A stretch of DNA of 64,000 nt, from contig CALIKQ010000048.1 in NCBI GenBank assembly GCA_938017975.1, positions 1 through 64,000 of the forward strand, in the 5' to 3' direction. Source of the DNA: an uncultured Pseudomonadales bacterium. Lineage in GTDB: Bacteria; Pseudomonadota; Gammaproteobacteria; Pseudomonadales; Azotimanducaceae. The notes under the pieces were generated by a model. That model saw only the letters and a program-made list of their open reading frames with translations, had not been told where the DNA came from and searched no databases. Position numbers and translations under genes: made by a program. Positions 1,550 to 57,469 of the stretch are shown here, piece by piece. The stretch's first letter is position 1. Each line of letters starts with the position of its first letter.

Positions 1550-4974
<3,425 letters not shown>

Positions 4975-5376: not shown

Positions 5377-5427
5377 TTTTCAATCCTCAGAAATTGTTGT
5401 GCTGGTTTTTTGACCGGCGCTCGCGCG

Positions 5428-5619
5428 CTAATCTCCCAACATTCGACGAATGAGCGGGACATCGCTGGGCGCGATGGCCTTCATGTTACGCAAATGACGC
5501 TTACGCTTAGTCGGCTTTTTCGTCAGGATATGATTCCTGAAGGATTGACGGTGCTTATAGCCTTTAGCAGTCTTTTTAAACCGCTTGGCAGCACCACTAC
5601 TGGTTTTCAGTTTTGGCAT
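5428..5619 (-). CDS. rpmI: Ribosomal protein bL35
   Basis: bL35 is a small basic 50S protein of 63 residues. The start [15 protein letters not shown] and the ending RRMLGD are typical of the family, whose usual length is 64-66 residues. It lies between infC and rplT in the standard operon order, with a 148-bp gap after infC that in E. coli holds the L20 translational operator. Confidence 0.97.
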
Positions 5620-5767
5620 GGTTTGAACTCCGCATTGTTCAGTTTAATGGCTGCAAGTTCCACGTTTTTTTGCTCATCGCAATGAACAAACTCGCTCGTA
5701 TCACCCACAAACCTTGGCCGCGCCGGGGGCGGTATTGCCCATCTCGGCATTCGCTGTTGCGAATCAG

Positions 5768-6319
5768 TTAAGCAGTTGCCTCACTGGTGCCCTTCTTTTT
5801 TGTATTCGGTGCCAGCACCATGGTCAGTTGACGTCCTTCCATTTTTGGAAACATTTCAACCGTACCAAACTCTGCCAGATCTGCCTCAATTCGTTTGAGT
5901 AGATCGATACCGAGCTCTTGGTGCGCCATCTCACGTCCTCTAAACCGCAACGTCACCTTGGCTTTATCACCGTCATTAAGGAAACGGGTCAGGTTGCGTA
6001 GTTTTACCTGATAGTCTCCATCTTCAGTTCCTGGACGGAACTTAATTTCTTTAACTTGCATCCGGCGTTGCTTCTTTTTCGCCGCTGCTTTTCCCTTTTT
6101 TGCCTCGAAGATATGTTTGCCGTAATCCAGAATCTTACAAACCACTGGATTGGCGTCAGGCGCGATCTCAACAAGATCTAACTTCGCTTCCTGAGCTGCT
6201 TTTAGCGCTTCAGTAATGGAAACAATTCCAACCTGCTCGCCATCTGCACCAATTAAACGGACTGACTCCGCTTCAATATCATCATTAATCCGAGTCTTTT
6301 TTGAACCTTCTTTTTTAAT
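5768..6319 (-). CDS. infC: Translation initiation factor IF-3, with ATT start codon
   Basis: IF-3 keeps the 30S subunit free and checks the start codon and initiator tRNA. The protein has 183 residues: an N-domain, a lysine-rich linker ([13 protein letters not shown]) and a C-domain with [20 protein letters not shown] and [12 protein letters not shown]. The chosen start is ATT at 6319-6317, because a strong Shine-Dalgarno AAGGAGG lies 7 nt before it. It gives [13 protein letters not shown], matching the family's N-terminus. A TTG at 6340 is in frame but lies upstream of that Shine-Dalgarno. In E. coli the AUU start lets IF-3 repress its own synthesis, and the same control is likely here. Confidence 0.96.
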
Positions 6320-6363
6320 TCCGAAGCCTCCTTCAGGCAATAAGGCCGGGCATTATAGCAAAA

Positions 6364-8280
6364 TCATGCCGTTCGTCCCTTTTTTTCTTCATCTTTTCGC
6401 AAGACCGTTAAAAAATCAGAAATAGGCATTGATCCCAGATCATCGCCGTTTCTGGCACGCACGGCTATCTGGCCCGAATCCCGTTCTCGATCGCCGACCA
6501 CGAGCAGATAAGGTACTTTTTGCAGTGTGTGTTCACGAATCTTGAACCCTACTTTTTCATTTCGAGTATCGGCTTCAACGCGAACCCCTGCCCCAGCAAG
6601 TGTCTCGGTAACCGATTGAACATACTCTGATTGGCTATCGGTGATATTCATGACCACAGCTTGCACTGGCGCCAGCCAAACTGGGAAGTCCCCTGCATAG
6701 TGTTCGATCAGGATCCCAATAAATCGTTCGAAAGAACCCAGCATCGCGCGATGCAGCATCACAGGCACTTGACGACTACCATCCTCGGCAACGTACTGGG
6801 CGTCCAGCCGACCCGGCATTGAAAAATCGACCTGGATGGTACCGCATTGCCATACCCGGCCTAAACAATCTTTGAGCGAAAACTCTATTTTAGGGCCGTA
6901 AAAAGCGCCTTCACCTGGCAGCAGGTCCCAGGTGAGAGCCTTGACATCGAGCGCATCTGCCAGCGCTTTTTCTGCACGATCCCAGACCTCATCAGAACCC
7001 ACGCGCTCTTCGGGACGCGTAGAAAGCCTGATAATCAGGTCATCGAATCCAAAATCACGATAGACGTCGGTGATCACATCAATAAAGTGCACCACCTCAT
7101 CTTGAATTTGATCCTCTCGACAAAAAATATGCGCATCGTCCTGAACGAAGCCGCGCACGCGCATGATTCCCTGCAACGTCCCCGAGGGTTCATTGCGATG
7201 ACAGGATCCAAACTCTGCCAATCGGATGGGCAGCTCTCGGTAACTCTTTAACCCCTGATTAAACACCTGGACGTGACAAGGGCAGTTCATGGGCTTGATC
7301 GCGTATTGTCTCGAATCAGATTCCACCGAGAACATCCCATCGCCAAACTTGTCAGCATGGCCGGATTTTTCCCATAAACTCATATCCACGAGTTGTGGCG
7401 TTTTAATCTCTTGATAACCGTGGCTGTTTTGGACCTGCCTGATATACCGCTCCAAGATCTGCCAAATCTGCCAACCTTTCGGGTGCCAGAACACCATCCC
7501 CGGCGCTTCCTCTTGGGTATGAAATAGATCTAGGCGCTTCCCCAACTTTCTGTGATCGCGCTTTTCCGCTTCTTCTAATCGGAACAGGTATTCCTTCAGA
7601 GCCTTCTTATCACCCCAAGCCGTTCCATAGATTCGCTGTAGCATTTCGTTTTTTGAATCGCCCCGCCAATACGCGCCAGCAACTTTGGTCAATTTAAAGG
7701 CTTTGATTTTCCCTGTGTCCGGCACATGGGGCCCGCGGCACAAATCTACAAAGTCCCCCTGCTGGTAAAACGACAAGTCTTCACCCGAAGGGATACTTTG
7801 GAGAATTTCGACTTTATAGTGCTCACCTTTTTCTTGGAAAAAAGAGATCGCCTCATCACGAGACATGATGGAACGCGAAACGGTCTGCCGCGCACTCGCA
7901 AGATCCTTCATTTTCTTTTCTATCGCCGCGAGGTCCTCAGGCGTAAACGCTCTCTCGAATGCGAAATCATAGTAAAAGCCATCTTCAATGGTTGGCCCGA
8001 TCGTTACCTGAGCTTTTGGAAAGAGTTGCTGTACCGCTTGGGCCATAAGATGCGCACAAGAGTGTCGGAGCACTTCAATTCCTGCGTCGTCCTTTGCAGT
8101 GATGATCGACACTTCGGCGTCTTGATCGATGAGATGGGAGGTATCAACCAGTGCTCCGTTGACCTCTCCAGCAATGGCTGCGTTTGCGAGCCCTTCCCCT
8201 ATTGAGGCCGCGACGCCCTGGAGCGTGACTGGGGTTTCAAAATCTTTCTGAGTGCCATCCGGCAAAGTGATTACGGGCAT
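6364..8280 (-). CDS. thrS: Threonine--tRNA ligase
   Basis: ThrRS charges tRNA-Thr and removes mischarged serine. The 638 residues hold a TGS domain (1-61), the editing domain (about 65-240, with [11 protein letters not shown]), and a class II core (about 245-535) with zinc ligands in MNCPCHV, DDAHIF and [10 protein letters not shown]. The anticodon-binding domain (about 540-638) contains [16 protein letters not shown]. The start at 8280 (MPVITLPDG) is chosen over an upstream in-frame ATG at 8313 because AAGGAGA lies just before it and the family starts there. It heads the thrS-infC-rpmI-rplT-pheST order seen in E. coli and Pseudomonas. Confidence 0.98.
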
Positions 8281-8364
8281 CGCCGTCTCCTTTTCAGTGG
8301 TGACCCCTACCAAAGGCCACTTGCAGGTATTGATATGGCCTTTCTAGGCCAAATTCCCTTTGAT

Positions 8365-8441
8365 TGGTAGGAACGGTCGGATTCGAACCGACGACCCTCG
8401 CCTTGTCGAGGCGATGCTCTAACCAACTGAGCTACGTTCCT
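8365..8441 (-). tRNA. tRNA-Val (anticodon GAC), with C at position 33
   Basis: A full 77-nt cloverleaf is seen. The acceptor is AGGAACG/CGTTCCT, the D-arm GCTC/GAGC, the anticodon stem TCGCC/GGCGA and the T-arm GTCGG-TTCGAAT-CCGAC, with discriminator A and an encoded CCA. The anticodon loop reads TCGACAA, giving anticodon GAC (Val). Position 33 is C, not the near-universal U. The loop's outer bases (T and A) could pair and leave a 5-nt loop. It sits just upstream of thrS on the same strand, as a tRNA-Val does in Pseudomonas. Confidence 0.88.
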
Positions 8442-8556
8442 AAAGCTTTTCTTAGCGACCCTATATTAACAGCCCTATTTCAAAGGCTGTAGTGAATTCC
8501 GCTCTTTGCAGTACAAACTTTTCGCGCGCGACTATAACAAAACATCTGGGTCAGAA

Positions 8557-10584
8557 CTAGGTCCTAACGAACTGTTCACGAAGCTGCTCAATTTGATCCC
8601 TAACTTGAGCCGCTGCTTCAAATTCTAAATCCTTGGCAAGGGCAAACATTTCTTTCTCAAGGCTCCGCATCCGTTGCTCGAGCTGATCCGGGGTTGTGAG
8701 GAGTTCATCAGCAGCGACCCGATTCTCGGCCCGACCACGTCGATCTCTTTTCGACTTGGCACCCTTGCTCGATGGATCTCGAGCGCCTTCCATGATGTCG
8801 GCAACGTCTGTCGTTATGCTCACGGGCGTTATACCATGTTCGGCATTAAACGCCTCCTGGCGTTCTCGTCGACGATTGGTTTCATCAATTGCACGTTGCA
8901 TCGACTGAGTCACATGGTCCCCATAGAGGATTGCTTTGCCGTGGAGATTTCTAGCTGCGCGCCCAATGGTCTGGATCAAAGAGCGGTCAGACCTCAAAAA
9001 GCCTTCTTTGTCGGCATCTAGGATGGCGACCAAAGAAACTTCCGGCATATCCAAACCCTCACGAAGTAAATTGATACCGACGAGCACGTCAAATTCCCCC
9101 AGACGAAGGTCGCGGATAATCTCAACGCGTTCAACCGTATCGATATCGGAATGCAGGTAACGCACCTTTACCCCATTTTCATCAAGATAGTCGGTTAGGT
9201 CCTCTGCCATCCGCTTGGTGAGGGTGGTGATGAGCACTCGTTCTTTAACAGCCACTCGTTGACGAATTTCTCCCAGCACGTCATCAACTTGGGTTTTGGC
9301 AGGTCTCACTTCAAGAATTGGATCAACCAATCCAGTGGGGCGAACCACTTGATCGACGGTTTGACCGACCTTTTCTTTTTCGTATGGCCCTGGAGTTGCC
9401 GACACATAAATTGCCTGGGGCGCGCGGGCTTCCCATTCCTCAAATCGCATCGGCCGATTATCGAGCGCCGAGGGCAATCTAAAGCCGAACTCAACCAGCG
9501 TTTCCTTGCGCGAACGATCGCCCTTGAACATTGCTCCAATCTGGGGGATCGATACATGGGATTCATCAACTACCAATAAAGCATCATCCGGCAAATAGTC
9601 ATAAAGCGTGGGCGGCGCCTCTCCCGCGGCGCGGCCTGATAAATAGCGAGAATAATTTTCGATGCCATTGCAGTAACCCAATTCTTTGATCATCTCCAGA
9701 TCGTAGCGTGTTCGCTGCTCAAGGCGCTGAGCCTCTACCAGCTTATTATTGTCATGTAATTGCTTCAGGCGAATCTGAAGCTCAGCCTTGATCAGATCAA
9801 TTGAACGCTCGATGGTCTCTCTTGGCGTGACATAATGACTCTTGGGAAATATGGTAATCCGCGGCAATTTACGGAGCACCGCACCGGTCAACGGATCAAA
9901 AAGTGTGATCTGCTCAATTTCATCATCAAACAATTCAATACGAATCGCTTGTTTGTCTGATTCTGCCGGGAAAACATCAATCACATCGCCTTTAACGCGG
10001 TAAGTGGCGCGGCGCAATTCCAGATCGTTGCGCGTATATTGGAGTTCCGCAAGCCGCCTTAAAATAAAACGCTGATCAACTCGATCACCGCGATCCAAAT
10101 GTAAAACCATTTTCAAATAAGCACCCGGATCGCCTAATCCATAGATACTCGAAACCGACGCCACAACCAAAGCATCACGCCGCTCTAGTAGTGCCTTGGT
10201 TGCCGACAGCCGCATCTGCTCAATATGATCGTTGATAGCGGCGTCCTTCTCGATATAAGTATCCGAAGACGGCACGTAGGCTTCTGGCTGATAGTAATCA
10301 TAGTAAGAAACGAAGTATTCAACCGCGTTGTTGGGGAAAAATGCCTTAAATTCTCCGTACAGCTGAGCGGCGAGTGTCTTGTTAGGAGCCATCACCAAAG
10401 TCGGCCGCTGCAGTGCATTTACGACATTGGCGATGGTGAATGTTTTTCCAGACCCGGTAACTCCAAGCAACATTTGAGATGCCAGGCCCGATTCAACGCC
10501 TTCGATCAATCGTTCTATCGCGGCTGGCTGATCTCCCGCCGGCGAGAAATTTGACACCACCTGAAACGGATTGCTCTTCAACAC
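8557..10584 (-). CDS. uvrB: Excinuclease ABC subunit B
   Basis: UvrB is the damage-verifying helicase-like subunit of nucleotide excision repair; it is loaded by UvrA and recruits UvrC. The 675 residues show Walker [15 protein letters not shown] (about 39-52), the beta-hairpin region [20 protein letters not shown] (about 94-113), DEAD-like VVDESH, the helicase motif QTIGRAARN, and the C-terminal UVR motif (about 635-670) that binds UvrC. The start is GTG at 10584. I looked for a LexA box (CTGT-N8-ACAG) upstream and saw none. Confidence 0.98.
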
Positions 10585-50808: not shown

Positions 50809-51645
50809 TTATTCGTCTACAATCGAAATGGTGGGTGCAGACGCAGGCTCTTGCATCAACAGTTTAGACGCCACTTCCGCACTGAGCGCTGTAAACTCCC
50901 GGGCAGCGGTGCTCTCTGGTTGATCGATGACAATCGGTTGTCCCGCATCGGAGGCCAACCGCGTCTCCAGTGATAAAGCTAAGCGCGCAAGTACAGGCAC
51001 CTGATACTCCTGTGCAATCCGATCACCGCCCCCTGTGCCAAAAATCGCGCTTTTATGACCACATTCACTGCAGGTGTGGGCGCTCATGTTTTCAACGATA
51101 CCCAACACAGGAACTTCTACCTTGTTAAACATTTCGATGCCTTTTCTTGCGTCTAGAAGCGCAATGTCTTGGGGCGTGGTCACGATGATCGCGCCAGTCA
51201 CAGGCACCCGCTGGGCAAGCGTCAATTGGATATCACCAGTGCCCGGGGGCATATCGATCACTAAAACATCAAGGTTGGGCCAAGCCGTCTGGGTCAACAT
51301 TTGTTGCAGCGCACCGCTGGCCATCGGACCTCGCCAAATCGCAGGCGTTTTGCTCGATGCAAGAAAACTCATCGACATGCAAAAAAGACCATGCGCCTCG
51401 ATTGGAATCAACTGATCATTTTGAACGTCGGGCCGGGTCTCAGGAGGCAGGCCCAACAATGTCCCCTGACTGGGCCCATAAATATCAGCGTCGAGCAGCC
51501 CAACTCTTTGGCCCGCCCTCGACAGAGCAACCGCAAGATTCGTCGCCACAGTTGACTTACCAACCCCACCCTTTCCGGAGGCCACCGCGAGGATCGCTTT
51601 GACTCCGGGCAGATTAAGTGGCTCAACTCCTTTGTTCTCTGACAC
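50809..51645 (-). CDS. apbC: Iron-sulfur carrier protein ApbC/Mrp
   Basis: ApbC is an ATPase of the NBP35/Mrp class that carries Fe-S clusters to target proteins. The 278 residues have the deviant Walker A VASGKGGVGKSTVATNLAV, switch II VIDMPPGTGDIQL and the cluster-binding CxxC in SAHTCSECGHKS. The N-terminal MIP18-like domain of E. coli Mrp (about 90 residues) is absent; only a short lead precedes the P-loop. It is divergent from metG, as in Pseudomonas and E. coli. Confidence 0.94.
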   Translation of the reverse strand: MSENKGVEPLNLPGVKAILAVASGKGGVGKSTVATNLAVALSRAGQRVGLLDADIYGPSQGTLLGLPPETRPDVQNDQLIPIEAHGLFCMSMSFLASSKTPAIWRGPMASGALQQMLTQTAWPNLDVLVIDMPPGTGDIQLTLAQRVPVTGAIIVTTPQDIALLDARKGIEMFNKVEVPVLGIVENMSAHTCSECGHKSAIFGTGGGDRIAQEYQVPVLARLALSLETRLASDAGQPIVIDQPESTAAREFTALSAEVASKLLMQEPASAPTISIVDE

Positions 51646-51799
51646 GACTCGATCCTCACCAAATAACTAGAAGCCCCATTGTACCGAGGCTGTGCGCCAA
51701 AATCAGTTTATCGATCGCTGACAAAGTCAAATGAGAGGAAAATATAGCGCCGAATCGCTAGATCCAATAAACTTGCGCCTTCTTAACGGGAGTCTCGCG

Positions 51800-53833
51800 A
51801 TGGCAGATCGTCGACGCATCCTGGTGACAAGTGCGCTGCCCTATGCCAACGGCGCCATTCACCTAGGCCACATACTCGAACACATACAGACCGATATTTT
51901 TGTTCGGTTTCAAAGGCTTCGGGGTCACGAATGCATTTATGTGTGTGCCGATGATGTACACGGTACGGCCGTGATGTTGAATGCCGAATCAGACAATCTG
52001 TCACCTGAGGCATATACCGCAGAGATCACCGCTAATCATATCAGGGACTTTAAGGCATTTTTAATCAGTCACGATTGCTATAGCACCACGCATCATGCGG
52101 AGAACAAAAGCCGTACCGAAGAAATCTACCACCGCCTAAAACAGGCAGGTCAGGTCAAAAAGGCGTCGGTCGAGCAGCTCTTCGACACCCAAAAACAGCT
52201 TTTCCTTGCCGACCGATTCGTGACTGGTGGCTGCCCAAATTGCAAAGCGCCCGATCAATACGGCGACAACTGCGATGCGTGCGGCGCAACCTACGCAGCA
52301 ACAGACCTCCTCAATCCTATTTCGAAACTATCGAATACGCCGCCAGAGCTGCGGTCTTCCGACCATATTTTCTTCGCGTTGTCTAACTTCACCGATTTCC
52401 TAAAAGAATGGACGAACAGCGGTACGCTCCATCCAGCGGTCACCAACAAGCTTGCTGAATGGCTCGATGAGGGACTACAAGACTGGGATATTTCCAGAGA
52501 TGCACCCTATTTCGGTTTTGAAATCCCTGATGAGCCCGGTAAATACTTCTACGTTTGGATGGATGCTCCTATCGGATATATGGCGACCTTTGCCCAGTAT
52601 TGCCAAGCCAATGCAATCAATTTCGAAGATTACTGGCGGCCGGACTCTGAGTGCGAGGTTCATCACTTCATTGGTAAAGACATCGTAAATTTCCACGCCC
52701 TGTTTTGGCCGGCAATCCTTAAGACCGCTCAATACCGAACGCCAACTCACGTCCACGCCCACGGCTTCGCCACCATCAATGGTGAAAAAATGTCGAAATC
52801 AAAAGGCACGTTTATCAACGCGAAGACTTATCTCAGCGAGCTATCACCCGAATATTTAAGGTATTACTACGCCTCAAAACTCAACCCGGGGGTCGGCGAT
52901 CTTGATCTCAATCTCGAAGACTTCGTCCAAAAATCTAACTCGGATTTAGTCGGCAAGGTCGCTAATATCGCCAGTCGGTGCGCGGGGTTTATCAACAAAC
53001 AATTCGACGGCCAAATCAAGGCTACCACCGGAACGCCGCTGCTGGCCAAAACGCAAGCAGCGGCGACCGAGCTAGCATCGCTATTTGATGCAACTGAGTT
53101 CAGCAAGGCCATGCGGCAAATCATGGGTTTGGCCGATCAGGCCAATCAATTTATCGCTGAGCAAGCGCCTTGGCAGCTCATCAAGGATCCCGCAACACGA
53201 GACCAGGCAGAAGCGGTCTGCGCCGATGGACTGAATTTATTCCGACTGTTGGTGCTTTATCTCAAACCAGTTTTACCGGGTTTAGCCGAACGTTCGGAAT
53301 CATTTCTAAATATTCCACCGCTAAGCTGGGCTGATCACGCGCATCTGCTAACCAACCATCACATTAAGCCGTTTACACCGTTAATACAGCGCATCGAAAT
53401 TGACCAGGTCAATGCCATCGTCGAGGCTGAGCGGAAAGCCTATGCAGCCAACAACGAGCCGCAGGATGCCGGTTCGGACACGGCGGAACCTGAAACTGAC
53501 AGCGAGGCCCTGATCGACATTGATGCCTTCAATGCCGTGGAGCTCAAAGTTGCGCGAATCATCGAAGCCAAAGCGGTTGATGGCGCAGATAAGCTGTTAG
53601 CGCTCAGGCTTGATGTCGGCGATCACGAGCGAACCGTTTTCTCGGGCATTAAAGCCGCTTATTCACCAGAAGACCTAGAAGGAAAACTGACGGTGTTAGT
53701 GGCAAACCTCAAACCTCGGACCATGAAATTTGGCGTGTCAGAGGGCATGGTTTTAGCTGCAGGACCAGGCGGAGAAAACATTTTCCTCTTGAGCCCAGAC
53801 TCGGGCGCCAAACCCGGCATGACGGTGAGCTGA
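51800..53833 (+). CDS. metG: Methionine--tRNA ligase
   Basis: A class I synthetase of 677 residues: HIGH as [15 protein letters not shown], a zinc knuckle with [20 protein letters not shown] (about 145-165), KMSKS in [12 protein letters not shown], the anticodon domain (about 390-540) and a C-terminal tRNA-binding OB domain (about 575-677, [20 protein letters not shown]) after an acidic linker. The start at 51800 has GGGAG upstream; a frame from 51731 would add residues the family lacks. It runs 8 bp into the rsx operon. Confidence 0.97.
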
Positions 53834-53841
53834 GTGATCCG

Positions 53842-54423
53842 ATGCTGACTGAGGCACTGATCGTGCTGTTTACCGCAATCTTCGTGAACAATTTTGTCGT
53901 GGTCCAATTTCTGGGACTGTGTCCGTTTATGGGCGCCAGTCAGAGGATCAGCAGCGCAGTCGGGATGGCCAGCGCAACGCTTTTTGTGCTCACGCTCAGC
54001 GCTGGATTGTCCTACCTGATTGAGCACTACATTTTGCAACCCTTTGAATTGACGGCGCTCCGAATCCTAACGTTTATTATTTTAATAGCTGGGCTTGTCC
54101 AATTTATGGAGATTGTGATCCGGGCAACCCAACCGCTACTCCATGAATTTCTAGGTGTCTATATCCCGCTGATTACAACGAACTGCATGGTATTGGGCGT
54201 TGCACTGATCAATGTCCGCACCAGCGATAGCTTTCTCGGCGCCGTCTTGCTTGGTCTTGGCGCTGGCCTGGGTTTCGGGCTTTTGTTGGTTATCTTTGCC
54301 GCGCTTCGTGAGCGCCAATCTAGCTTATCGGTACCCAAACCATTTCAAGGCGCCGCCATCAACATGATCACAGCCGGCTTGATCGCGCTCGCGTTCTCTG
54401 GGCTAACTGCAATGCGCGTGTAA
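53842..54423 (+). CDS. rsxA: Rnf/Rsx complex subunit A
   Basis: RsxA is one of two homologous membrane subunits that hold a [2Fe-2S] cluster between them. The 193 residues span six helices. The cluster cysteines are in FLGLCPFMGAS and ITTNCMVLGVA. Length equals E. coli RsxA. It opens the operon 8 bp after metG and its stop overlaps the rsxB start by 1 bp. In E. coli Rsx reduces SoxR; in other bacteria Rnf couples ferredoxin and NADH to ion movement. Confidence 0.97.
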   Translation: MLTEALIVLFTAIFVNNFVVVQFLGLCPFMGASQRISSAVGMASATLFVLTLSAGLSYLIEHYILQPFELTALRILTFIILIAGLVQFMEIVIRATQPLLHEFLGVYIPLITTNCMVLGVALINVRTSDSFLGAVLLGLGAGLGFGLLLVIFAALRERQSSLSVPKPFQGAAINMITAGLIALAFSGLTAMRV

Positions 54424-55310
54424 TGATCGGCTCACTCGCTTTAATGCTAGGCACTGCACTGACGATCTTTGCGCTTATTTTCTCAGCAAAAAGATGGTTC
54501 AAAGAGGATCCTGGAACGCTTGAACATCTGATCTTACAAACGCTGCCTCAAACGCAATGCGCCCAATGTGGCTATCCTGGCTGCCGTCCTTACGCCCAAG
54601 CCATTGCCGCAGGGGAAGCCATTAACCGCTGTCCACCAGGTGGAGATACCCTGATCGCTACGCTCGCTGAGCTATTAAACAGAGAGATCGTTCCGCTTGC
54701 TGACGGGCTCAAAGCGGTGCCTACGCCTCTAAAAGCTCGAATCCGTGAAGAGGACTGCATCGGCTGCACACTGTGCATCAAGGCTTGCCCCGTGGACGCG
54801 ATTATTGGGAGCCAAAACCTGATGCACAGTGTCATCGACGCCAATTGCACAGGATGCGAACTCTGCTTGCCCCCTTGTCCGGTGGACTGTATTGATCTTG
54901 TTGCACAAGTCCCGGTGACGACGGAGCGGTCAAAGCCCGCATTCCCAACGCCGTGCATCTTCTGCGGCGCTTGCGTGCCCGTTTGTCCCAAACAGCTATC
55001 GCCCCATGTCTTACTCCTCGCCTATGACCAGCCCGAAGCTCAGCGAGCTGCCAACCTATCGGGCTGTGTCGAATGCACGCTCTGTGACCAGGTCTGTCCC
55101 AGCGAAATCCCCCTCACAAAGACGTTTCAATCGATGAAGCACAACAGCCAATTGCGCGCAGAACAAAAAGACTTTGCAGAGGCGACAGAGCAGCGATACT
55201 TAGCACGTGAGAAAAGAATAAAAACCGTCGAGCAAACGGTGATTAATCGACCCAAAGCCGATGCGGCCGCGAGTTTGATCAATCAAATCAAGCGAGACTT
55301 CTCCGAATGA
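54423..55310 (+). CDS. rsxB: RsxB with fused ferredoxin part of RsxC
   Basis: A 295-residue membrane-anchored iron-sulfur protein; E. coli RsxB has 192. Residues 1-22 are the membrane helix. The RsxB part follows: a first cluster site C46, C49, C54, C70 (QCAQCGYPGCRPYAQAIAAG) and two ferredoxin motifs with C112/115/118/122 and C142/145/148/152. Then come two more motifs, CIFCGACVPVCP (178-188) and CVECTLCDQVCP (215-225), and a charged tail. These match the C-terminal domain of RsxC (CIRCxxCxxxCP, DCIECGACxxVCPSNIPL, then a Glu/Lys/Arg-rich tail). No rsxC lies in the operon; rsxD starts 4 bp before this stop. The NADH/FMN part of RsxC is missing. Confidence 0.93.
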   Translation: MIGSLALMLGTALTIFALIFSAKRWFKEDPGTLEHLILQTLPQTQCAQCGYPGCRPYAQAIAAGEAINRCPPGGDTLIATLAELLNREIVPLADGLKAVPTPLKARIREEDCIGCTLCIKACPVDAIIGSQNLMHSVIDANCTGCELCLPPCPVDCIDLVAQVPVTTERSKPAFPTPCIFCGACVPVCPKQLSPHVLLLAYDQPEAQRAANLSGCVECTLCDQVCPSEIPLTKTFQSMKHNSQLRAEQKDFAEATEQRYLAREKRIKTVEQTVINRPKADAAASLINQIKRDFSE

Positions 55311-56260
55311 ATGCGCATCGTCAAATGGTGCATACCAGCCTTGCACTCTTGCCTGGTTTCCTGGCCGCCAGTTTCGTTTTTGGCCCAGGCATTGGGATAA
55401 ATGTACTCGCTGCCTTGTTGACGGCCTTTGTGCTTGAGCTCGGGTTTTATCGAGTCCAGAACAGCCATCCACCGAAGGCAGCAGTCTCAGCGGGATTGCT
55501 CGCAGCCGCGTTACTCGGTCTTTGTCTGCCACCTTACCTGCCGCTCACCCACGTCATTCTGGGCGTCAGTTTTGGGCTGATTTTCGGTAAATATGTCTAT
55601 GGCGGGCTGGGCCAAAATCTTTTCAATCCAGCCATGGTTGGTTATGCGGGCCTGATTGTCTCAGCGCCGCTGCTCATGAGCCAATGGTACCTGGACCGAC
55701 CCCTCGGCCTCAGCTGGATGGAGCTGCTGGCTGTCAAGGCAGGTTTGCTTGAACTCGACGGCTATTCCGGCGCCACGGCGCTTGACCTATTACGCAATCG
55801 GCAAGGAACAACGATGGTTGAATATTGGCGCCTTGCGGAGCACCGGTTTGAGCCTCAGGCCATGATCAGCCTCGGCTATTTTATCGGTGGCCTCTATCTT
55901 TTGAAATGCAAAATCATTCAATGGCAGCTTCCAGCTGCAATGCTCGCAGGCCTACTCCTCCCCGCCGCGCTCCTGTTTGATGCAGGGAGCTCTGATAGCT
56001 TTGGCTCACCCCTGCTGCACCTGCTTGGCGGAGCTACATTGTTCGGTGCGTTTTTCATCATTACCGATCCTGTGAGCTCACCCAATACACGCTCAGGACT
56101 GATCCTCTACGGTCTGGCCATTGGCGCTTTGACATTTCTGATTCGTGGTTTTGGTAGTTTTCCAGATGGTTTGGCCTTCGCAGTCTTACTCGCTAATGCT
56201 CTCGGTCCGCTTCTGGACTTGATGGCTCCTAAACCTAATCGATCACAAGCACCCTTATGA
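55307..56260 (+). CDS. rsxD: Rnf/Rsx complex subunit D
   Basis: RsxD is a membrane subunit with covalently bound FMN. The 317 residues have about eight helices and the flavin attachment motif DGYSGATALD, where Thr in SGAT carries FMN, plus the family segments GKYVYGGLGQNLFNPAMVGY and ITDPVSSPNTRSG. It is shorter than E. coli RsxD (352), mostly in loops. It is coupled to rsxB and rsxG by 4-bp overlaps. Confidence 0.96.
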   Translation: MNAHRQMVHTSLALLPGFLAASFVFGPGIGINVLAALLTAFVLELGFYRVQNSHPPKAAVSAGLLAAALLGLCLPPYLPLTHVILGVSFGLIFGKYVYGGLGQNLFNPAMVGYAGLIVSAPLLMSQWYLDRPLGLSWMELLAVKAGLLELDGYSGATALDLLRNRQGTTMVEYWRLAEHRFEPQAMISLGYFIGGLYLLKCKIIQWQLPAAMLAGLLLPAALLFDAGSSDSFGSPLLHLLGGATLFGAFFIITDPVSSPNTRSGLILYGLAIGALTFLIRGFGSFPDGLAFAVLLANALGPLLDLMAPKPNRSQAPL

Positions 56261-56808
56261 AATCCGCTTTCGGAACATTGATGATTGCAGCAGGAATGTC
56301 CGCACTTCTGATCGGCGGTATCCATCTGCTTACCAAATCGCGAGTCCATGACAACCAGCAAACCTATGCGCTTGAGGTTTTAAAGACAGTGGTCCCTCGG
56401 GATGAGATTGCATTGGCCCTACAAAAAAAACCCTCACCCTATTACACGATTGACGAAGCTGGCCGCTTTATTGGCGTCTTATTCAACATTTCGACGGAGC
56501 ACGGATATAACGGGCGCATCGAAGCGTGGCTTGCGGTCGGCCTAGACCATAAAGTACTCGGCGTTCAAACAACGTTTCATCAAGAGACACCCGGGCTGGG
56601 GGACTTTATCAATGCTGGATCACTTTGGAATCGCCAATTCTTAGGAAAACAACTGAACCAGGCTCGCTTCGACATCCGGCTAGACAAGGGTGATTTTGAC
56701 AACGTAACCGGTGCCACAGTGACGAGTCGGGCTTATACTCGAATGATTAAGACCGGAATCGATCATCCCGCATTGATGAGACTGACCCAAGAGCAACAAA
56801 GTGACTGA
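56257..56808 (+). CDS. rsxG: Rnf/Rsx complex subunit G
   Basis: RsxG has one N-terminal membrane helix (about 6-24) and a periplasmic FMN-binding domain. The 183 residues include HQETPGLGD and the covalent FMN motif DNVTGATVTSRA, where the Thr after TGA(T) is the attachment site. Length is near that of E. coli RsxG (206). Overlaps: 4 bp with rsxD, 8 bp with rsxE. Confidence 0.95.
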   Translation: MKSAFGTLMIAAGMSALLIGGIHLLTKSRVHDNQQTYALEVLKTVVPRDEIALALQKKPSPYYTIDEAGRFIGVLFNISTEHGYNGRIEAWLAVGLDHKVLGVQTTFHQETPGLGDFINAGSLWNRQFLGKQLNQARFDIRLDKGDFDNVTGATVTSRAYTRMIKTGIDHPALMRLTQEQQSD

Positions 56809-57469
56809 CGCAACCCACCACCTTCAAGACGGTCTTTGGCGCAATAATCCCGCTCTGGTGCAGTTGCTAGGATTGTGTCCGCTGCTTGCTGTCAGCCAAC
56901 AATTGGTCACTGCGCTGGCACTTGGACTCGTAACACTGATTGTTTTAACCACCTCAAACCTTTTAATCAGTCTATTTCGGCGTTTCTTGATCAGCGACAT
57001 CCGGCTACCACTGCAGATTTTGGTCATCGCAACATTGGTATCGGCTGCAGATTTACTCCTGCAAGCCTTTTTCTTCGAACTGCACCAGCGAATTGGATTA
57101 TTCGTTGCCCTGATTGTGACCAATTGTACAATCCTTGGACGGGCAGAGTTGTTTGCTCGTCGCAACGCTATCACGGCCTCAATCGCCGATGGCTTTTGGA
57201 TGGGATTTGGATTCTTATGGGTCATCACCCTCCTAGGCGGAATTCGTGAAATCATAGGACGCGGAACCCTGTTCGGAGGTTTTGACCTCATTTTGGGTCC
57301 ATCTGCTCAATCCTGGGTTATTGAGTTTTCATCAACACCCATTATTATCGCCGGCATGGCACCCGGTGCCTTTTTAGCTCTAGGCTGCATGATTGCTTGC
57401 AAAAACTGGTTGGACCAACGATATGAATCAAGCAAAAAGGATCGCGTTTCTCAGCACCCTGCGCGCTGA
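56801..57469 (+). CDS. rsxE: Rnf/Rsx complex subunit E
   Basis: RsxE pairs with RsxA. The 222 residues have six helices; the cluster cysteines are in LLGLCPLLAVSQQ and IVTNCTILGRAE, and ADGFWMGFGFLWV and GGIREIIGRGTLFGG are family segments. It closes the rsx operon and overlaps nth by 47 bp, the usual rsx-nth order of gammaproteobacteria. Confidence 0.96.
   Translation: MTDATHHLQDGLWRNNPALVQLLGLCPLLAVSQQLVTALALGLVTLIVLTTSNLLISLFRRFLISDIRLPLQILVIATLVSAADLLLQAFFFELHQRIGLFVALIVTNCTILGRAELFARRNAITASIADGFWMGFGFLWVITLLGGIREIIGRGTLFGGFDLILGPSAQSWVIEFSSTPIIIAGMAPGAFLALGCMIACKNWLDQRYESSKKDRVSQHPAR

Follow-up and report, generated by a model that had tools for sequence, protein, structure and literature searches.

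A bacterial Rnf/Rsx operon has been found in which RsxB is fused to the ferredoxin tail of RsxC. It lies in a 64,000-nucleotide stretch of DNA from an uncultured member of the Azotimanducaceae (contig CALIKQ010000048.1), which we call the window. We put the probability at about one half that RsxA, the fused RsxB, RsxD, RsxG and RsxE make up a real and selected variant of the Rnf/Rsx complex, predicted from sequence, from which the NADH/FMN module has been removed. The motifs for one-electron cofactors are kept in this variant, and its tail end would be open to a one-electron carrier.

The fused gene and its operon

The five rsx genes of the window form one locus with homologues of the A, B, D, G and E members of the Rnf/Rsx set. 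They run in the order rsxA-B-D-G-E on the plus strand, with metG (51731-53833) ahead of rsxA and an nth-like gene after rsxE. The names of the two flanking genes are our own; Pfam recognises a class I tRNA synthetase M domain in the former and an HhH-GPD domain in the latter. Neighbouring rsx genes overlap by 1, 4, 4 and 8 bases, which bears out the order and overlaps described in a first-pass annotation of this DNA. As rsxB and rsxD overlap, there is room for no gene between them. The minus strand immediately before metG (50809-51645) carries a gene for what by eye is an Mrp/ApbC-like P-loop ATPase.

All five genes are recognised by Pfam and NCBIfam models. RsxA (53842..54423) matches NF003481 at 242 bits (cut-off 240) and hosts the GLCP and TNC motifs for a membrane [2Fe-2S] cluster; the same GLCP and TNC cysteine motifs can be read in the sequence of RsxE (56801..57469). 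RsxD (55307..56260) has an SGAT FMN-threonine motif, with just 6 residues ahead of its conserved core. RsxG (56257..56808) has the FMN-threonine motif TGATVT, and its 98.8 bits against TIGR01947 are slightly below the cut-off of 102.

The fused gene (54423..55310, plus strand) encodes 295 residues with five [4Fe-4S] sites, judged by motif. Residues 1-162 (54423..54908) are the RsxB part, with the N-terminal helix kept, a FeS domain with C46/49/54/70 (PF04060 at 41-72) and two ferredoxin motifs; residues 4-162 match the rnfB model TIGR01944 at 194.8 bits, against a cut-off of 68.7. The RsxC-tail part, residues 164-283 (54912..55271), consists of two [4Fe-4S] motifs followed by a long charged helix. 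The first-pass annotation had placed these two motifs at 178-188 and 215-225, and this is indeed where the cysteines are located (C178/181/184/188 and C215/218/221/225).

Several comparisons trace the tail to RsxC. Residues 164-283 correspond to positions 355-476 of the 556 in the RsxC model NF003454 (67.5 bits, E 8e-19), and residues 173-241 to positions 360-430 of the 435 in TIGR01945 (45.1 bits, E 5e-12). Both scores fall far under the whole-protein cut-offs (345 and 246), as is expected since only the tail is present. When residues 164-295 were searched against the PDB, the top match was RnfC of A. vinelandii (E 1.4e-10) and the second RnfC of A. woodii (4.9e-8), with C. tetanomorphum RnfC at 2.1e-5; the best unrelated ferredoxins were formate hydrogenlyase subunit 6 (3.9e-6) and the alpha subunit of acetyl-CoA decarbonylase/synthase (5.5e-6). 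Two RnfC proteins therefore rank ahead of any unrelated ferredoxin. In an alignment with the RsxC tails of 19 other loci, of which every second row was inspected, the motifs CIxCxxCxxxCP and CxECxxCxxVCPSxIPL match up, and in the rows inspected the charged helix behind them lines up too. An AlphaFold model of the fused protein places this helix at 231-274, and in a Foldseek search with the model the sole match below E 0.001 was chain B of the A. woodii Rnf. However, the model has a pTM of 0.41 and low confidence in the cluster regions, so we build little on it. By the profile and PDB matches, which agree with the first-pass annotation, the extension on RsxB is derived from the C-terminal ferredoxin domain of RsxC.

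A possibly working complex and its probable electron path

Is the complex likely to function? The cofactor motifs are well kept. All 20 cysteines of the [4Fe-4S] motifs, including the 8 in the tail, are invariant in 19 of 19 fused proteins (that of the window among them). The [2Fe-2S] cysteine motifs are found in RsxE at 42 of 42 fused loci and in RsxA at 42 of 43, the sole miss being a 73-residue fragment at the end of a contig. The FMN-threonine motif is found in every complete fused locus (RsxD 42/42, RsxG 33/33) by a widened pattern; a narrower one tried first had found 35/44 and 34/40, counting loci that are cut. In full operons the wider search recovers only 56 of 73 RsxD and 46 of 62 RsxG sequences. 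ApbE attaches FMN. It is present in all of the 52 genomes examined, which were hand-chosen from 200 genomes of the family (27 with the fused gene, 25 with RnfC), and in the genome of the window it is found on G000:C20.

Comparison of the window with its nearest relative (84% identity) gives dN/dS values of 0.053 in the RsxB core, 0.075 in the ferredoxin part of the tail and 0.15 in the charged helix; they are rough, as dS is about 0.8-1.25. Judged by these values, the tail of the fused gene is under purifying selection.

The electron path of Rnf is described in excerpts of review and structural work (PMC12174285, PMC11889175). It leads from ferredoxin at RnfB through the [2Fe-2S] cluster of A/E, FMN-G, FMN-D, the riboflavin of D, two RnfC clusters and FMN-C to NAD. 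According to the same excerpts, the A. woodii RnfC contacts RnfB via its C-terminal helix, and the A. vinelandii RnfC has a longer helix that contacts both RnfB and RnfH (PMC12174285, PMC11889175).

In the fused complex, we infer, electrons would run between the RsxB clusters, the [2Fe-2S] cluster of A/E, FMN-G, the FMN and riboflavin of D and the two clusters of the tail. This flow along a one-electron path would be coupled to the movement of H+ or Na+, as in the solved Rnf complexes. The tail clusters, which normally bridge the riboflavin of RsxD to the FMN of RsxC, would here end at the cytosol, and so would exchange electrons with ferredoxin, flavodoxin or a flavoprotein that docks in trans, not directly with NADH. 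The fusion would hold the tail beside RsxB, like the C-terminal RnfC helix in the solved complexes, and the cut would fall between the one-electron wire and the two-electron chemistry of NADH. A complex with two one-electron ports that retains its coupling to an ion gradient would be the most economical reading.

It is unlikely, in our judgement, that the fused protein is mainly a polyferredoxin, with tail and RsxB clusters that exchange electrons directly or serve Fe-S enzymes while pumping is minor or lost. That said, in some distant families the fused protein is also found without D, G and E nearby, so it may act independently of the pump. One such locus (L206, genome G456; apparently the same contig as the named record L091, isolate OFTM369) has rsxA and the fused rsxB, followed by an unrelated gene. 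Another (L208, G538) has rsxA and the fused rsxB with rsxD about 3 kb distant, adjoining an HhH-GPD gene; rsxG and rsxE were not found within the stretch read. In L209 (G416, 3381-4963) the fused gene lacks its N-terminal helix and immediately precedes an HhH-GPD (nth-like) gene; neither rsxA nor any further rsx gene was found in the 8 kb read. L141 and L147 show RsxB as the single rsx gene found. Against a polyferredoxin, the loci read in the family of the window keep A, the fused B and D consecutive, along with G and E where the stretch extends that far, and they retain the cofactor motifs. Furthermore, the closest clusters of RnfB and RnfC are more than 30 A apart in the A. woodii complex, according to excerpts of PMC11889175, which speaks against direct exchange.

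Some neighbouring genes at these reduced loci are worth recording. The gene after the fused rsxB in L091/L206 encodes a 596-residue Pro/Ala-rich protein. An ATPase-like gene (by eye) lies downstream of rsxA and the fused rsxB in L207 (G432) and in L208, where it sits between this pair and rsxD with the HhH-GPD gene.

A ferredoxin:quinone version of the complex strikes us as improbable. Here the riboflavin of RsxD would pass electrons to a membrane quinone as in NqrB, and the tail would merely cap RsxD, like the cofactor-free NqrA may. The precedent is Nqr, whose related membrane core uses quinone and whose RnfC equivalent has no cofactors (excerpts of PMC12174285, PMC11889175). However, the eight tail cysteines are invariant in all 19 rows, which is unexpected of a cap.

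The apparent absence of the NADH module, in this genome and in many relatives

The draft genome of the window comprises 3.19 Mb in 79 contigs, with an estimated completeness of 96.5% and contamination of 2.7%. A full-length RnfC (TIGR01945) was not found in it, the matches being the fused tail, a NuoE/F-like protein and two weak partials. The Complex1_51K domain (PF01512) occurs once, in that same 711-residue NuoE/F-like protein, the neighbour of which reads as a putative formate dehydrogenase large subunit. The RnfC_N family PF13375 was also tried as a marker. It matched in 100 of 200 genomes, 48 above the cut-off and many in frames of about 450 and about 1,100 residues, and since this was too noisy TIGR01945 and PF01512 were taken instead. 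No full-length stand-alone rsxC was found elsewhere in the genome. Neither of the two outcomes that the first-pass annotation named as refuting, such an rsxC or a better alignment of the extension to unrelated ferredoxins, was seen. The first-pass annotation proposed that the operon encodes an Rnf-like complex without an NADH module, and the profile searches of the genome and many relatives agree with it. The predicted absence of the NADH module from this genome is strongly supported.

The N-terminus of RsxD may carry another mark of the loss. Excerpts of PMC11889175 describe how both loose termini of RnfD occupy cavities of RnfC in A. woodii. RsxD has a median of 20 residues before its conserved core in full operons and of 7.5 in fused operons. 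An SPH-like motif ([SAG]P[HYFTL]) at this N-terminus is found in 65 of 75 full operons, a class that includes L180-L182 with a degraded N-terminal part of RsxC, and in none of 44 fused ones. It is likewise missing from all 6 operons with a shortened RsxC and both with a separate tail gene, and present in 3 of 4 loci without RsxC. These loci are the best matches of several searches and hence an uneven sample, from which 12 duplicates and the loci without a clear RsxD start were excluded. With kinship taken into account over random pairings, the motif agrees in about 2.7 of 5 independent pairs, is equal in 2.3 and disagrees in 0, which is not significant (median p 0.25); the same test lends no support to the N-terminal length alone. 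The loss of the segment is consistent with a true absence of the module, but it is neither proof nor, given kinship, independent evidence.

Could the NADH module be supplied in trans, by NuoF, a formate dehydrogenase-type subunit or an unrelated flavoprotein? The NuoE/F-like protein is a candidate of this kind in the genome of the window, and an unrelated flavoprotein might conceivably act in trans, yet we regard such a supply as very unlikely. In 10 of the 27 fused genomes, all ten of them 91-100% complete, a search for Complex1_51K at E 1e-6 gives no match; in the other 17 no match lies on the contig that bears rsx. In addition, RsxD has lost the segment with which it may help to anchor RnfC. 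All 25 chosen genomes with RnfC have Complex1_51K matches at the same threshold. At least three fused genomes of the family (G170, G184, G235) also encode an RnfC with its flavin domain elsewhere.

The fused architecture is widely spread among relatives, where the first-pass annotation advised looking for it. In the genus it is found in at least 14 of 15 genomes, and the fifteenth (G293) is 72% complete. Among 200 genomes drawn evenly from the family, at least about 96 have a single match that runs from RsxB to residue 232 or beyond, at least 53 have an RnfC with a flavin domain and at least 3 have both; these tallies were picked by hand from the matches listed. Three of the family's fused matches are interrupted by a stop within the alignment; those of G289, G241, G158 and G216 are partial with a late start. 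Further out, long single matches occur in at least 4 of 145 genomes of the order (G000, G039, G137, G101), and among 276 genomes of the class that are at least 90% complete the window is joined by at least 6 others (G527, G418, G456, G432, G538, G416). Of the best 80 loci from named records, 7 carry the fused gene (L088-L094). All are MAGs, and one is from a K189A-clade bacterium that falls among the rows of the window's family in the locus tree; the K189A clade includes strain HTCC2089 (NCBI taxonomy), so the family of the window may be the one around that strain. A plasmid search matched 26 records, one of which covers at least 80% of the query; the five matches listed span RsxB only (54%).

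There is a negligible chance that the fusion comes from faulty assembly or binning, or that it is a relic in decay. The draft is in 79 contigs with 2.7% contamination, but the same architecture recurs in those 96 or more family genomes, two single-contig assemblies (G216, G260) among them, and in the seven named records, and dN/dS is 0.05-0.15 in the parts measured; an artefact is thereby refuted.

When the loci are classified with profiles built from the 80 named loci, four states can be told apart: a full RsxC with a normal RsxB, a shortened RsxC, a separate gene for the tail only, and the fused gene. The shortened RsxC has frames of about 340-365 codons with no N-terminal domain and an altered ECEP motif, which becomes ETDP (L178-L179), DCNP (L186) or ASEP (L168-L170). 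In full RsxC we take this motif to lie at the FMN site. A separate tail-only gene is found in L187 and in L167 (Pseudohongiella sp. HyVt-330), where rsxB, a 177-residue RsxC-tail gene and a divergent rsxD follow each other at 5647-7795; the RsxA-like match of L167 has no cysteine motifs.

In a quick LG+G4 tree of 119 loci, based on RsxA, B and D and with several long branches flagged, the fused state requires 6 changes, at least 5 of them on well-supported branches. The tree does not separate gain of the fusion from its loss, and the full RsxC is inferred to be ancestral because it is widely spread. In genus g124 the fused loci L171-L173 are nested among rows with a shortened RsxC. Of 42 fused loci, 40 have 23-37 residues of linker between the final motif of RsxB and the first one of the tail (the outliers are L174 with 47, and L048 with 54 and ambiguous bases), and this range suggests a shared spatial constraint. 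Tentatively, and with slightly more doubt than belief, we propose a class of NADH-free, ion-coupled Rnf that works between two one-electron carriers. It would have arisen several times in the Gammaproteobacteria as RnfC lost its flavin module step by step and RnfB took over the cluster domain of RnfC, and each step would still be represented by living intermediates.

Comparison with known systems

Rnf is known as a ferredoxin:NAD+ oxidoreductase whose mechanism is under active structural study. Like the Rnf/Rsx systems of E. coli (RsxABCDGE), A. vinelandii (Rnf1), A. woodii and C. tetanomorphum, the complex of the window has subunits A, B, D, G and E with their genes in the customary order, and it keeps the motifs for the [2Fe-2S] clusters, the FMN-threonines, the clusters of RsxB and both clusters of the RsxC tail. 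It differs in that the RnfC_N and FMN/NADH domains are missing, the tail is on RsxB and the N-terminus of RsxD is shorter. Searches of the open-access PMC literature turned up neither an Rnf that lacks RnfC nor a fusion of the C tail to B, in keeping with the first-pass annotation, which knew of no well-described case; nothing relevant on rnf in HTCC2089 or K189A was found among the best matches of the open-access literature.

The E. coli Rsx reduces SoxR. The genome of the window has an RseC-like protein (27.6 bits, cut-off 24.4) but zero SoxR matches at E 0.001, and for nifH only two weak model matches (best E 7e-6). An RseC-like match occurs in 17 of the 27 genomes with the fused gene and in 23 of the 25 that have RnfC. 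For SoxR above the cut-off the figures are 2 of 27 and 6 of 25, and for nifH 0 of 27 and 1 of 25. The suggestion of the first-pass annotation that the complex serves mainly to reduce SoxR or nitrogenase-like partners is thus not upheld. As a side note, G217 of the same family encodes two NifH-like proteins (on C136 and C95) far under the nitrogenase cut-off (E 2e-64, 4e-58), possibly of the chlorophyllide-reductase type.

Other RsxB proteins are also found without RsxC in the stretch read, namely those of the models NF005415 (PRK06991) and NF006446 (PRK08764) and of loci L141 and L147. These two models presumably stand for stand-alone RsxB genes. The fused protein matches them no further than residue 169 or 161, which leaves its ferredoxin extension uncovered. 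Three further loci, L153, L160 and L164 (Pseudomonas alcaligenes RU38D, Pseudomonas sp. AL03 and Stutzerimonas urumqiensis; about 5400-9200), have rsxABDGE without rsxC. Unlike the fused protein, their RsxB has no ferredoxin tail; it is lengthened by seemingly RsxC-like C-terminal Ala/Lys repeats and by eye lacks the N-terminal helix. The [2Fe-2S] cysteine motifs of RsxA and RsxE are found in 0 of 3, RsxG has AGAT (seen by eye, missed by the pattern) and RsxD has SQAT or similar.

If the reading of a selected NADH-free variant is true, the complex would separate the pump from its substrate chemistry and suggest that NADH is dispensable to the core. It would also offer a smaller system for testing the direction, the partner and the ion coupling.

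Na+-NQR (NqrABCDEF) has a Rnf-type membrane core too, and its RnfC equivalent no longer handles NADH (excerpts of PMC4014512, PMC12174285, PMC11889175). The rsx operon of the window encodes neither NqrA nor NqrF by Pfam and NCBIfam, and the N-terminus of its RsxD, the region in which NqrB has its quinone-site helices, is short. The nearest published parallel that we found is the route to Nqr proposed in excerpts of PMC4014512, in which rnfB was lost and RnfC decayed to NqrA. Na+-NQR kept the NqrA fold without its clusters and gained NqrF; in the complex of the window the fold is lost, the clusters are kept and RsxB is retained. The series of states within one family shows a path of module loss opposite to the route proposed for Nqr, which kept the fold and gave up the clusters.
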